A DNA stretch of 64,000 nucleotides from Bacteroidaceae bacterium. Its GTDB lineage: Bacteria; Bacteroidota; Bacteroidia; Bacteroidales; Bacteroidaceae. The notes under the pieces are model-generated. The model saw only the letters and a list, made by a program, of their open reading frames with translations, made no database searches and was not told where the DNA came from. Of this stretch, positions 27,601 to 51,005 are shown piece by piece; position 1 is the stretch's first letter, and each line of letters starts with the position of its first letter. The position numbers and the translations under genes were made by a program. The stretch lies in the NCBI GenBank assembly GCA_017429945.1, contig JAFRNY010000018.1, positions 1 through 64,000 on the forward strand, given 5' to 3'.

Positions 27601-27980
27601 GCGTTATCCGCATAGAGAGCAGCAAGACCCTACCGCTCAAGAAGATGCGCAAGCAGCTCCTGCGCGACGCACAGCGCGAGGGCTACGACCATGCCTATAT
27701 CGTGCGTAAGGATGCCCTCTATTGCGTCAACGTTAAGGACGGAAGCGAGAAACCGCTGCGCAAGCCCAACATCAGCCCAACCCTGAACATGATGCGCCAC
27801 ATTAGCGCCCTCTCCACCGAGCAGACAGATGTCGTCAACAGCGAGGATAACGGGGCCCGCTTCTCCATTGTAGGACCTAAGGCCATGCTACTCAACGATG
27901 TGGAAGTGCCGATGACTACGCCCGAGCAGCCCGCCAAGATTCCATTGACGTTCCCATTACATAGGAAACCCACTCCCTGA
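24681..27980 (+). CDS. secreted TldD/PmbA-family protein, tandem fusion of an active-type and a motif-less half
   Basis: 1,099 residues with a signal peptide (MKRILLFLFILVSIRPGFSA). The N-terminal half (about 20-560) has the TldD metallopeptidase motif FFHEIFGHRLEGH, with His311, Glu312 and His316. The C-terminal half (about 570-1090) repeats the same architecture (QPAPFIIDYRLQRS, then VGPVLFENGAAGRIIYNL, NLRFNKPNTWNG), but the HExxxH is missing. TldD/TldE complexes pair one chain with the motif and one without, so this looks like both partners in one polypeptide. A CCCTCTG microrepeat lies at the junction (26370-26390). The last codons and stop run into a palindromic repeat. It interrupts the proA-argF' order. 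Confidence 0.88.
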   Translation: MKRILLFLFILVSIRPGFSATTADNDTLLRVLREELSADFAELQKQDIKPYFISFRVQESFNTRITASFGFLGISNQNHSRTFTPQVRVGTPELDNFKFNNQSRSGTQPLPLTDASTDALRTAIWSQMLTAYDRATAAYRDAQNRLRSQADNEDKAPCFSMLSDSVAESYYEPPLTHPALTPDEQRKWEERLCRISAVFRQWPQFGEAVANLQVENQRTHLVSTEGTAIVQNRISYRVFIQAQVKTDDGMEMPLNKTYYATSLDALPAEDVMIRDAEDVGRRLEALSKAPVADPFTGPALMSGEASGVFFHEIFGHRLEGHRMKTGGQTFRKMIGEQVLPTDFQVYCDPTLTHYGDQPLNGGYRFDDEGTRARRVNNVMDGVLKEFLMSRVPLDSFPQSNSHGRTAEGGTPVSRQSNLVVETRKPYTEAQLRQLLRDEARRQDKPYGYLFQSVSGGFTQTGEGGSINSFNVTPLEVFRIYVDGRPDELVRGVDLIGTPLSMFSNITAGGDTPATFIGVCGAESGWVPVSATSPMVFCSKIETQRRQEKSALMPVLEAPHFITQPSALCPLHVAEDSVIFAALSDELQRSMDSLRIEGQPAPFIIDYRLQRSREFDLTSSFGEITTMQVSPWAQKFDAEVILGDYKHSSLREPESGMRGVGIPMAADYNNLRRQAWFASDARYKQAIASLENKRQQLKKVQLPADEAALDDLIPAQPVTSIQVQPREFSDTLADELADYLRRLSGMAKEFPALILSVANMNQHQAYIYRLTSEGVRVAQLQDDISSISFRFAFARGTNPLSWNHDYASPSELLADSARFTKRAREYVALQYKLFCDSIAEEDYYVGPVLFENGAAGRIIYNLTSGNRHNFRAWHPYLRSDRAIFSKLNRKIVDDKITIRQDPTLTKWNGHELIGAYTVDANGQTPQAVTLVDRGIFRAQLCGSTPALGTSKPTGNLRFNKPNTWNGALAASTAPGVIRIESSKTLPLKKMRKQLLRDAQREGYDHAYIVRKDALYCVNVKDGSEKPLRKPNISPTLNMMRHISALSTEQTDVVNSEDNGARFSIVGPKAMLLNDVEVPMTTPEQPAKIPLTFPLHRKPTP

Positions 27981-28112
27981 CCCCTCCTTTAGGGAGGGCA
28001 GTAGTCTCCTTCAAGAATAGACAAATAATAATAACTATAAACATGACCCTGTAACAACCTCTCAAATACATTCCACTCCCTCCCTACAAGGGAGGGTGAG
28101 GGGTGGGTCTTC
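27971..28112. repeat. C-rich/G-rich composite palindromic element (copy 2)
   Basis: Starts over the TldD-like stop codon (CTGACCCCTCC) and ends five bases before the argF' start (GTGAGGGGTGGGTC). Sub-hairpins CCCTCC...GGGAGGG are at each end. It shares TCTCCTTCAAGA and CCTCTCAAATACATTC with copy 3 inside argF', which pins down the relationship. It forms the whole argF' leader. Confidence 0.75.
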
Positions 28113-28117
28113 TTTTT

Positions 28118-29212
28118 ATGAAAGTTTTTCAACACGTACAAGACCTTGGCGACCTGAGCGTCGCCCTCGCGGAAGCGCAGGAAGTGAAGCGCGACCGCTA
28201 CCAGTGGCAGCACCTCGGTCGCAACAAGACCGCGCTGCTCATCTTCTTCAACAACTCCCTCCGCACGCGCCTCTCGACGCAGAAGGCTGCCATGAACCTC
28301 GGCATGAACGTCATCGTGCTCGACGTGAACCAAGGCGCCTGGAAGCTGGAGACCGAGCGCGGCGTCGTCATGGACGGCGACAAGAGCGAACACCTCTTGG
28401 AAGCCATCCCCGTGATGGCCTCGTACTGCGACCTCATCGGCGTGCGCTCCTTCGCCCGCTTCGAAAGCCGCGAGGACGACTACGAGGAGAAGATCCTGAA
28501 CCAGTTCATCCGCTACAGCGGCCGCCCCGTCTTCTTCATGGAGAGTGCCACGGTGCACCCGTTGCAGGCGTTTGCTGACCTCATCACCATCAAAGAACAG
28601 ACCCCCTCCCCGCTCCCCCTAAAGGGGGAGAGTGGTCACCTTCAAGATCAGGTCCCCTCTCAAATACATTCTACTCTCCCCCTTGAGGGGGAGCGGGGAG
28701 GGGGTCTGTGGTCTGGTCGGCCCATCAAGGTTGTACTCACTTGGGCTCCTCACCCCCGCGCTCTACCGCAGGCTGTTCCCAACTCGTTCGCCGAGTGGAT
28801 GTTGGCCGCTTCCCAACAGGGACTTGGCATCGACTTCGTTATCACCCACCCCCAAGGCTACGAGCTCGACCCGCAGTTCGTGCAGGGAGCCCGTGTGGAG
28901 TATGACCAGATGAAGGCCTTCGAGGGCGCCGACTTCATCTACGCCAAGAACTGGAGCTGCCCGGGCGTCACACGTCCCCAGGACTACGGCAAGGTGCTCG
29001 ACGACTACCACACGATGATGGACTGGTGCGTCAGCGCACGCCAGATGGCCGTGACCAACGACGCGCACTTCATGCACTGCCTGCCGGTAAGAAGGAACAT
29101 GATTGTGACGGACGACGTCATCGAGGGGCCGCGCTCGCTGGTCATCCCCGAGGCCGCCAACCGCGAGATCTCGGCCCAAGTGGTGCTGAAACGAATGCTT
29201 GAATCGCTCTGA
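28118..29212 (+). CDS. argF': N-succinylornithine (N-acylornithine) carbamoyltransferase with in-frame repeat insertion
   Basis: About 364 residues from the ATG at 28118 (MKVFQHVQDLGDL); relatives are near 320. Carbamoylates N-acylornithine on the Bacteroides-type arginine route. Visible are the carbamoyl-phosphate motif SLRTR (47-51), the specificity region VVMDGDKSEH, HPLQAFADLITI, HCLPVRRNMIV and AANREISAQVVLKRML. Residue 90 is Ser, where as I recall the succinyl-specific Bacteroides enzyme has Pro and the acetyl-specific Xanthomonas enzyme has Glu. Between DLITIKE and KVVLTWAPHP sits an insertion of about 37 residues encoded by a perfect palindromic element (28598-28708). Confidence 0.95.
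   Translation: MKVFQHVQDLGDLSVALAEAQEVKRDRYQWQHLGRNKTALLIFFNNSLRTRLSTQKAAMNLGMNVIVLDVNQGAWKLETERGVVMDGDKSEHLLEAIPVMASYCDLIGVRSFARFESREDDYEEKILNQFIRYSGRPVFFMESATVHPLQAFADLITIKEQTPSPLPLKGESGHLQDQVPSQIHSTLPLEGERGGGLWSGRPIKVVLTWAPHPRALPQAVPNSFAEWMLAASQQGLGIDFVITHPQGYELDPQFVQGARVEYDQMKAFEGADFIYAKNWSCPGVTRPQDYGKVLDDYHTMMDWCVSARQMAVTNDAHFMHCLPVRRNMIVTDDVIEGPRSLVIPEAANREISAQVVLKRMLESL
28598..28708. repeat. 111-bp palindromic element inserted in frame in argF' (copy 3)
   Basis: Perfect 23-bp terminal inverted repeats (28598-28620 and 28686-28708; the left starts CAGACCCCCTCCCCGC). Each end holds an internal CTCCCCC/GGGGGAG hairpin, and the spacer has CACCTTCAAGATCAGGT and CTCTCAAATACATTC shared with copy 2. 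The length is exactly 37 codons and the reading frame stays open, giving a Pro/Gly/Leu-rich insert. Confidence 0.92.
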
Positions 29213-29231
29213 ACTTTAAGCTTCCTAATTA

Positions 29232-29274
29232 CAAAAGCCCCTGAAGCCATTGTGGCTTCAGGGGCTTTTGTTTT
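29232..29274. terminator. bidirectional terminator between argF' and relA/spoT
   Basis: An 18-bp perfect stem (29232-29249 with 29253-29270; core AAAGCCCCTGAAGCCA) with a 3-nt loop, A-rich on the left and T-rich on the right. It serves both convergent genes. Confidence 0.93.
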
Positions 29275-36095: not shown

Positions 36096-36486
36096 GGGCA
36101 ATGAGCAATTAGCCCAGGGCACTGCTCTGGGTTAGCTTGTCAGCAATATACGCGCCCTGACGGGGCAAAAGCATTAAATAATTGGAACTTAAATCTTCCT
36201 TAAATCATTGCTGACTGTACAGCTCGTGTGCCTAATCGGCCACACGAGAAGCTACGGCTCCACAGAGCCTACGCATGGCAGGCACGAGCGAGTAGGCCGT
36301 ATGCGGCCGTAAACTTCTGAGGCGATAAGCCGAAGAAGCCTTAAGAAAAGATTTAAGGTGAGATTTAAGGAAGATTTAAGTTCTACATATCTGTGTGCAA
36401 TAGTGCTTTTGCCCCATCAGGGCGAATATACCTTTGTCGCGGGTTACCCAGGGCGCTGCCCTGGGTCAACTGCTATATCATTGCCC
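36096..36486. repeat. 391-bp nested inverted-repeat element, copy 1
   Basis: Accounts for nearly all of the 36079-36575 gap. From outside in: GGGCAATGA ends (36096 and 36486), CCCAGGGC hairpins, then 21-nt arms differing at one base (36153-36173, CGCCCTGACGGGGCAAAAGC; 36404-36424), then GAACTTAAATCTTCC arms, around a core with CTCGTGTG/CACACGAG and further hairpins. A near-identical inverted copy lies at 50674-51005. No ORF is evident. Confidence 0.9.
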
Positions 36487-42773: not shown

Positions 42774-43085
42774 ATGAAGAAGGCCCTGCTTACACGTATC
42801 CTAACGCCTGCCGTCATCACAATTCTAATGCTGAGTTGTTCCGGCGGCAACCGCTACCGTGCGCTGCTCGACCGTGCCGACTCCCTCATGGCCGAGCACC
42901 CCGATTCGGCTTACGCCCTGCTCTGCACCATGGATCCCTCTAAATCCCCCCGAGGGACAGCCCCCTCCCAGCCCCCCGAGGGGGCGTTCATATCCTCGGG
43001 CGAACAAGCGGAAACGGACTCCCCCCCGAGGGGGGGACGGGAGGGGGGTACTTCAACAAATGAATGCAATAGATGCTATTCCTAA
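42774..43085 (+). pseudogene. truncated TPR-type lipoprotein ending in repeat-derived sequence
   Basis: About 103 codons from the ATG at 42774. The start gives a lipoprotein signal (lipobox MLSCSGG) followed by YRALLDRADSLMAEHPDSAYALLCTMDP, the opening of a group of Bacteroidetes TPR lipoproteins that I know as several hundred residues long. After that the frame runs through a C/G-rich palindromic element (SPRGTAPSQPPEG, then DSPPRGGREGG) and stops soon after. The body of the gene is missing, so it is probably a remnant. Family assignment rests only on the first 45 residues. Confidence 0.6.
42938..43050. repeat. C-rich/G-rich composite palindromic element (copy 5)
   Basis: Arms include GCCCCCTCCCAGCCCCCC on the left and GGGGGGACGGGAGGGGGG on the right, with inner CCCCCCGAGGGGG hairpins. 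Same C-to-G polarity and length class as copies at 20056, 27971 and 28598. It lies across the broken lipoprotein gene and may mark the deletion or recombination breakpoint. Confidence 0.75.
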
Positions 43086-50673: not shown

Positions 50674-51005
50674 GGGCAATGAGCAGTTAACCCCGGGCAG
50701 CGCCCCGGGTGACCCACGGCAAAAGTATATTCGCCCTGACGGGGCAAAAGCACTATTGCACACAGATATGTAGAACTTAAATCTTCCTTAAATCTAACCT
50801 TAAATCTTTTCTTAAGGCTTCTTCGGCTTATCGCCTCAGAAGTTTACGGCCGCATACGGCCTACTCGTTCGTGCCTGCCCTGCGTAGGCTCTGTGGAGCC
50901 GTAGCTTCTCGTGTGGCCGATTAGGCACACGAGCTGTACAGTCAGCAATGATTTAAGGTGAGATTTAAGGAAGATTTAAGTTCCAGTTATTTAATGCTTT
51001 TGCCC
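50674..51005. repeat. nested inverted-repeat element, copy 2 (inverted relative to copy 1)
   Basis: Reverse complement matches 36153-36486 almost base for base through the core (CTCGTGTGGCC, GTAGGCTCTGTGGAGCC, GCCGCATACGGCCTAC). The outer GGGCAATGAGCAGTTAA end is at 50674. The opposite outer end is cut off by repeat R at 51006, with a remnant GGGTCAACTGCAATAT at about 51090. Accounts for most of the 50476-51128 gap; the rest is AAAAGTG microrepeat. Confidence 0.9.

Follow-up and report, generated by a model that had tools for sequence, protein, structure and literature searches.

The window (here, the whole stretch of 64,000 nucleotides that was analyzed) comes from the genome of an uncultured gut bacterium of the Bacteroidaceae, 2.96 Mb in size and 82% complete. 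It contains argF', a gene for an N-succinylornithine carbamoyltransferase-like protein, with a palindromic element inside the coding region and a related element just upstream. The features of the locus are as follows:

27968 to 28108, + strand: longer doublet related to the insert, between the upstream gene and argF'; closed in every frame and containing the stop codon of the upstream gene
28118 to 29212, + strand: argF', 364 amino acids including the insert (Pfam, NCBIfam, and PDB comparison)
28598 to 28708, + strand: protein-coding palindromic element of family 1 within argF', 111 bp, 37 codons, QTPSPLPLKGESGHLQDQVPSQIHSTLPLEGERGGGL
28598 to 28620, + strand: left perfect 23-nt arm, made up of the outer arm and the beginning of the inner hairpin
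28614 to 28629, + strand: left inner hairpin, TCCCCCTAAAGGGGGA, read from the sequence, with inner-hairpin matches listed; each half of the element is a REP-like hairpin
28634 to 28672, + strand: spacer between the arms, which fixes the orientation of the element (GGTCACC-TCAAGA side to CATTC side)
28677 to 28692, + strand: right inner hairpin, TCCCCCTTGAGGGGGA, likewise read from the sequence
28686 to 28708, − strand: right perfect 23-nt arm

A first-pass annotation had described the insert as a perfect palindrome of 111 nt, or 37 codons, in the argF' frame. Its coordinates, length, and frame were right; perfection holds for the 23-nt arms, which are fully complementary, and not for the insert as a whole, in which 78 of 111 positions match its own reverse complement. 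Taken more widely, the arms (28597 to 28633 and 28673 to 28709) are 97% complementary across 37 nt, with 39 nt between them. Each half has its own hairpin (TCCCCCTNNAGGGGGA) with an outer arm outside it, so that the insert is a doublet of two inverted hairpin units. When folded as single-stranded DNA, the insert reached −47.2 kcal/mol (z = −10.3), and none of 200 dinucleotide shuffles folded as well; the palindromy is therefore far beyond chance. Five of the six reading frames contain a stop codon, and the sole open frame is that of argF'. The termini read CAGACC...GGTCTG, without a CGTC end. No known RNA family reached its gathering score between 27900 and 29300; the best match, mir-4484 (40.5 versus 90), reflects the hairpin of the insert.

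The best PDB relative of the argF' product is 1js1, the succinylornithine carbamoyltransferase (SOTCase) of Bacteroides fragilis. Residues 1 to 162 and 201 to 364 of the query align to residues 1 to 162 and 166 to 317 of the chain, which has only a few residues, a short linker, where argF' carries the insert. The Pfam domain OTCace_N ends at residue 160. Together, the alignment break and the domain boundary place the insert at the linker between the two domains, in agreement with the earlier view of an element inserted in frame at a domain linker. Here the carbamoyl-phosphate domain would pass into the second-substrate domain. Coverage of the product by the best NCBIfam model is split into two stretches and scores below the cutoff (271.7 versus 288), possibly on account of the insert, a point of relevance to annotation. 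According to passages of PMC4581275, enzymes of this class have two domains, linking helices, and a trefoil knot threaded through a proline-rich loop. By our reading of the sequence, the insert directly precedes KVVLTWAPHPRALPQAVPN, a putative strand and proline-rich loop, and the knot-forming loop would thus begin just past the insert. The frame and the homology on both sides suggest that the insert is translated as part of the enzyme; a tryptic peptide that it would yield is, for example, GESGHLQDQVPSQIHSTLPLEGER.

On the upstream side, the stop codon of a TldD-like gene (27978 to 27980) lies inside the intergenic relative of the insert, and the last residues of the TldD-like protein are therefore element encoded. 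Just 3' of argF', a perfect 19-nt hairpin (29231 to 29271) is probably the terminator of the gene. The upstream relative that the first-pass annotation had noticed does exist: the larger doublet at about 27968 to 28108 shares stretches of 35 nt (83%) and 31 nt (74%) with the insert. Local movement from this copy, which the annotation had also proposed, was rejected because the closest relatives of the insert in the same genome lie elsewhere (C20, 88%; C33, 86%; C76, 84%), and the spacer words common to the two elements also occur in other copies.

Family 1 in the genome and the genus

As a BLAST query against its own genome, the insert gave 89 matches, which after fetching and merging were classified as 43 places, comprising 9 full doublets and 34 half copies; the weaker doublet upstream of argF' stands outside these 43. 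All six compact doublets (109 to 115 bp) lie in frame within long open reading frames (ORFs), none of the three longer ones (149, 154, and 218 bp) lies within a long ORF, and 4 of the 34 half copies meet the ORF criterion, one of them in frame in a serine dehydratase (L135). The hosts of the compact doublets are argF' and genes for an outer-membrane efflux protein, an IGHMBP2-type helicase, a GH106 rhamnosidase, a mutarotase-symporter fusion, and dihydroorotase. The numbers of open frames among the six frames of these elements are 1, 4, 2, 1, 2, and 1, and the chance that all six would fall in an open frame by random strand and frame is about 16/46656 (hand calculation), a statistic that measures survivorship and not insertion preference.

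Intergenic copies tend to sit tight between stop and start codons. Of 31 copies examined, 24 could be scored for orientation, and 21 of these run with transcription (7 of 8 in genes and 14 of 16 between codirectional genes, with genes called mechanically from ORFs). GC skew did not separate replication from transcription as the cause of this bias. The window also holds palindromes of other sequence. Two oppositely oriented copies of another long element with ATTTAAGG-type arms lie at 36147 to 36430, where the copy is enclosed in a further inverted repeat (CGCCCTGACGGGGC), and at 50766 to 50990. A G+C-rich palindrome of like design (CCCCCTCCCAGCCCCCCGAGGGGG) at 42961 to 43047 has several open frames and is not clearly genic.

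Family 1 was matched in 10 of 101 genomes of the genus, its own included, at an E value of ≤1e-15, and in none of 197 other genomes of the order at ≤1e-8. Among 23 long matches examined in the genus (94 to 120 bp), 21 lie within open ORFs, a count that includes an exact duplicate (L037 = L002) and three weakly supported genes (L054 and L057, without a Pfam match, and L045, with one match just under the cutoff). The remaining two are L050 and L044; L044 lies in argF' and is truncated there by the end of its contig. Hosts in the genus include aspS, argS, fmt, an ABC-F protein gene, carB, and transporter genes, and homology to the host family resumes in frame on both flanks of the insert in argF', dihydroorotase, aspS, ABC-F, fmt, and carB. 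The argF' insert, treated in the first-pass annotation as an isolated event, is thus one case of a pattern present in several genomes of the genus.

The mutarotase-symporter insert is common to G000, G003, and G100, in frame in all three and with DNA flanks 85 to 93% identical, which points to vertical persistence. A near-exact compact pattern was found in three Bacteroidaceae metagenome-assembled genome records, from goat rumen, sheep rumen, and goat omasum. The exact pattern, found in 2 of 61 genomes including its own, is too strict for measuring breadth. Spread by viruses was considered and set aside, the half-element pattern having no match in viral contigs under exact matching. Two distinct argF' genes are present in the G091 bin (contigs C100, C144, and C160), together with a stretch that G000 has in identical form; the bin is either mixed or from a very close strain.

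The argF' linker and other host sites in related species

To place the insert in its gene family, we compared the linker across 87 argF' orthologs, 86 with both sides and one with the C side and linker only. An argF' match was present in 94 genomes; three (G003, G087, and G100) were left out as weak matches that look like the inserted peptide alone, G012, G024, G062, and G096 fall outside the 87 with their places not listed, and a second G091 copy with a family-1 insert at a contig end was not counted. The linker has 8 to 16 residues in 75 of 87 orthologs and 18 to 51 in the other 12, and the commonest length is 9 residues (47/87). An old protein feature, as the first-pass annotation had put it, would leave the 37 residues in all close relatives with the palindrome eroded; the short linkers of the 75 orthologs are a different picture. 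Among orthologs with a complete gene, G016 is the nearest (96% identical); its linker is short, KEQTRGLI, and the DNA encoding this linker, with flanks (AACAGACCCGGGGTTTG), could be read as a collapsed palindrome.

Seven of the 12 long linkers (G000, G013, G014, G018, G020, G097, and G101) had arm scores above all 300 dinucleotide shuffles. Palindromy was marginal in three (G071, G072, and G110; 2, 6, and 7 of 300 shuffles reached their scores) and not above chance in G019 and G075 (300 shuffles). The G075 linker (L173) is lengthened by a tandem ACTCTCA repeat, and the linker has its short form in G069 and G073; this is another route of linker growth at the same place. DNA folding, which covered five of the long linkers, agreed with palindromy for G000, G018, and G014, was weaker for G097 (z = −3.4, 1 of 200 shuffles as good), and was no better than shuffles for G101 (z = −0.5).

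By mutual similarity, the ten palindromic linkers form about six sequence classes: (i) G000, which G072 and the outer part of G020 resemble in part; (ii) G013, G097, and the inner part of G020; (iii) G071 with G110; and G018, G014, and G101 as classes of one each. Different palindromes have thus entered the argF' linker repeatedly. The G020 linker is a composite, in frame in argF' (L064, 1173 to 2267), with outer AGACCCCC-type arms and a family-3 palindrome (GGGGCAAGG) inside. A like composite stands at a second G020 locus (L288, 1209 to 1294), as if nested elements move as one. On an argF' tree built without the linker, a quick tree in which 35 of 84 inner branches are weakly supported, the minimum number of changes was 9 for 13 labels, 8 for the 10 palindromic linkers, and 6 for the 7 strict ones. 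When the 13 labels were shuffled 200 times, the mean was 12.4 changes and the minimum 10; carriers are therefore somewhat clustered, which leaves room for shared ancestry and later replacement.

Other classes are dispersed in the same manner. The G018 argF' insert has 59 matches in G018, and 11 of 16 long copies of its class that were examined lie in open ORFs (G018, 10/14; G000, 1/1; G072, 0/1), one of them in a gene that by sequence is presumably for CTP synthase. Matches to the GGGGCAAGGAGC class number 49 in G097, 63 in G013, and 65 in G020, and 18 of 24 places examined are in open ORFs. For both classes the criterion was mechanical (50 open residues on each side) and applied to the better-scoring places, and some of the open-ORF places are doubtful owing to low-complexity surroundings.

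Flanks of five host genes from the original genome were also compared with eight relatives. Long inserts of other sequence occur in some relatives at the helicase, mutarotase-symporter, and dihydroorotase sites. At the mutarotase-symporter site, unrelated palindromic inserts were found in G016 (equaled by none of 300 shuffles) and G018 (equaled by 1 of 300), which supports repeated entry there. The helicase-site insert of G018 was marginal (7 of 300), and six of the nine inserts tested were not palindromic (helicase, G016; mutarotase, G065; dihydroorotase, G018, G019, G065, and G117); three inserts from the original genome, used as controls, gave 0 of 300. The helicase-site loop ranges from 6 to 38 residues among the species compared, and it and the dihydroorotase loop are merely variable. 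By eye, the TolC-like site showed no clear palindromic insert in three other species, and no comparison was obtained for the rhamnosidase site among the relatives.

Affinities and probable movement of the elements

The closest parallel is found in the palindromic elements of Rickettsia (RPEs), which according to passages of PMC2229807 and PMC10969869 are of about 105 to 146 bp, multicopy, in frame in conserved protein genes, and divided into several families. A reference title indicates a Wolbachia counterpart, and PMC2229807 includes an account of an RPE insert retained in the guanylate kinase protein with the enzyme active. By description, the likeness is in palindromes of about 100 to 150 bp with many copies (here 111 bp, with long matches of 94 to 120 bp and 43 places in the genome) and in insertion in frame into conserved protein genes. 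The differences are that the host here is a ruminant-gut Bacteroidota and not an obligate intracellular Rickettsia, that family 1 lacks the CGTC end reported for R. conorii in PMC3733652, and that a single linker of one gene is occupied here by unrelated families, depending on the species.

Two other systems share features with these elements. REPINs, like the argF' insert, consist of two REP hairpins in inverted orientation, whereas the element here is 111 bp with long complementary outer arms and has neither a GTAG/CGTC tag nor a cognate RAYT that we could find. Passages of PMC3733652 describe intragenic GTAG/CGTC REPs, with dimers within ORFs in several species. Miniature inverted-repeat transposable elements (MITEs), among them ERIC, RUP, Correia/NEMIS, and the BrickBuilt elements of Porphyromonas named in PMC5771137, are likewise short, bounded by terminal inverted repeats, and sometimes intragenic. 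In contrast to MITEs, none of 17 family-1 inserts had a flanking direct repeat of 4 to 8 bp (1.4 would be expected by chance at 4 bp; L048, an 18th insert, was omitted for want of a located end, and the right ends of a few others are approximate), which speaks against a DDE transposase. Nor was a parent insertion sequence with the same terminal repeats evident in the loci fetched from this 82% complete genome.

These elements are very probably the Bacteroidota counterpart of the Rickettsia palindromic elements, dispersed doublets inserted in frame, with the argF' linker repeatedly invaded. A nonautonomous dispersed element of two inverted hairpin halves, REPIN-like in architecture, would insert at the argF' domain joint and would be kept because its length is a multiple of three, the frame used is free of stops, and the site tolerates about 37 extra residues; the insert would then be translated with the enzyme. 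Several unrelated palindrome families of this Bacteroidaceae genus appear to behave alike, with different ones entering the argF' linker in different species and, on less evidence, one or two other loops. Element mobility and decay by deletion are what these patterns suggest, and old inserts may shrink by deletion and leave new loop residues behind. Against this explanation count the lack of a close empty site at the DNA level from which junctions and mechanism could be read, the lack of a transposase with matching ends, the clustering of carriers on the argF' tree, the two long argF' linkers that are not palindromic, the folding result for G101, and the nonpalindromic inserts at the other host sites. 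By architecture, the best guess at the enzyme is an HUH/Y1 transposase acting in trans on single-stranded hairpins.

A more specific version treats the halves as REPs and the doublet as a REPIN, copied by a cognate RAYT (a Y1 HUH transposase) encoded in the genome; we consider this possible, if doubtful. The inverted hairpin halves, the many copies, the tight intergenic placement, and the lack of target duplication fit it, and the orientation bias could come from a strand-specific process. Of 101 genomes of the genus, 41 have a Y1_Tnp match at an E value of ≤0.001 (35 above the cutoff), inverted repeats with a score of at least 20 flank 13 of the 17 Y1 loci that were examined (a count made without a chance control), and passages of PMC6006769 describe Bacteroidetes TnpA-REP classes. 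However, the sole Y1_Tnp gene found in the original genome (L007, 1411 to 1893, − strand) lies between the copies of a perfect inverted repeat at least 42 nt long (GAGGGTACGAGCGCAGCGAGCACCC; 1323 to 1364 and 1929 to 1970). This repeat is unrelated to family 1 and was matched 18 times in the genome, in several cases close to a contig end. The gene is part of a RAYT-like unit with its own repeat, and as the family-1 enzyme it is not supported, since the flanking repeats differ. Families 1 to 3 were likewise absent beside the 17 Y1 loci, bar a weak 29-nt family-1 match near L104, and the termini of the element carry no GTAG or CGTC tag. The element carriers G016 (92% complete), G018, and G019 gave no Y1 match in their incomplete assemblies, and within the same limit no Y1 gene flanked by these palindromes was found.

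It is rather unlikely that each site received one ancient insertion that resident repeats later overwrote by recombination or nesting, an old hairpin serving as target in place of many independent insertions. The clustering of carriers on the argF' tree relative to shuffled labels, the G020 composite with its like at a second locus, and the variation of the helicase-site loops would fit such a history, and at the dihydroorotase site the long nonpalindromic inserts may be old insertions that have eroded. Against it, near relatives of carriers have plain 9-residue linkers (G017 beside G014, G114 beside G097), and 9 residues is the commonest state, within the 8 to 16 of most orthologs. We regard as improbable a process in the genus that is indifferent to element sequence and repeatedly inserts or amplifies the hairpins of whichever family a species has at a few permissive sites of essential enzymes, chiefly the argF' linker. 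The hairpin fold and the target (perhaps a preexisting hairpin) would guide this process, and decay would yield new loop sequence.

Removal of the insert from the RNA, or its skipping by the ribosome, would leave a normal protein and could draw on the strong hairpin of about 111 nt; it is very improbable, because the six compact copies are stop free in the frame used though most frames are closed, a constraint needless if the insert were removed, and because no RNA family reaches its gathering score around the gene. The chance of an assembly or binning artifact of metagenome-derived genomes is slighter still: palindromes do break assemblies, and G091 shows two argF' genes and a stretch identical to one of G000, but the same family recurs in frame in many separately assembled genomes and the orthologous insert of G000, G003, and G100 has diverged flanks. 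An old functional protein segment with accidental palindromy can be dismissed, having nothing beyond its frame in its favor against a near-perfect palindrome at the DNA level, a segment lacking from most orthologs, and the recurrence of this DNA in unrelated genes, on either strand and in differing frames.

In-frame palindromes are best known from Rickettsia. We found no report of them for Bacteroidota in the titles and abstracts of open-license PMC papers, and an earlier case in the phylum may lie in PMC3733652, a passage of which mentions CGTC repeats in some Bacteroidetes. What appears to be new is the scale within one Bacteroidota genus and the repeated entry of one linker by unrelated palindromes. 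If such inserts are common in a single gut genus of this phylum, which offers many species and several families for comparison, how mobile DNA makes new protein segments becomes testable, and the inserts would show which loops of essential enzymes accept 30 to 50 extra residues and how inserts decay. argF' is a striking test case, with the insert apparently close to the loop through which the trefoil knot is threaded. Bacteria of this genus seem able to keep enzymes working while mobile DNA is inserted into them again and again.
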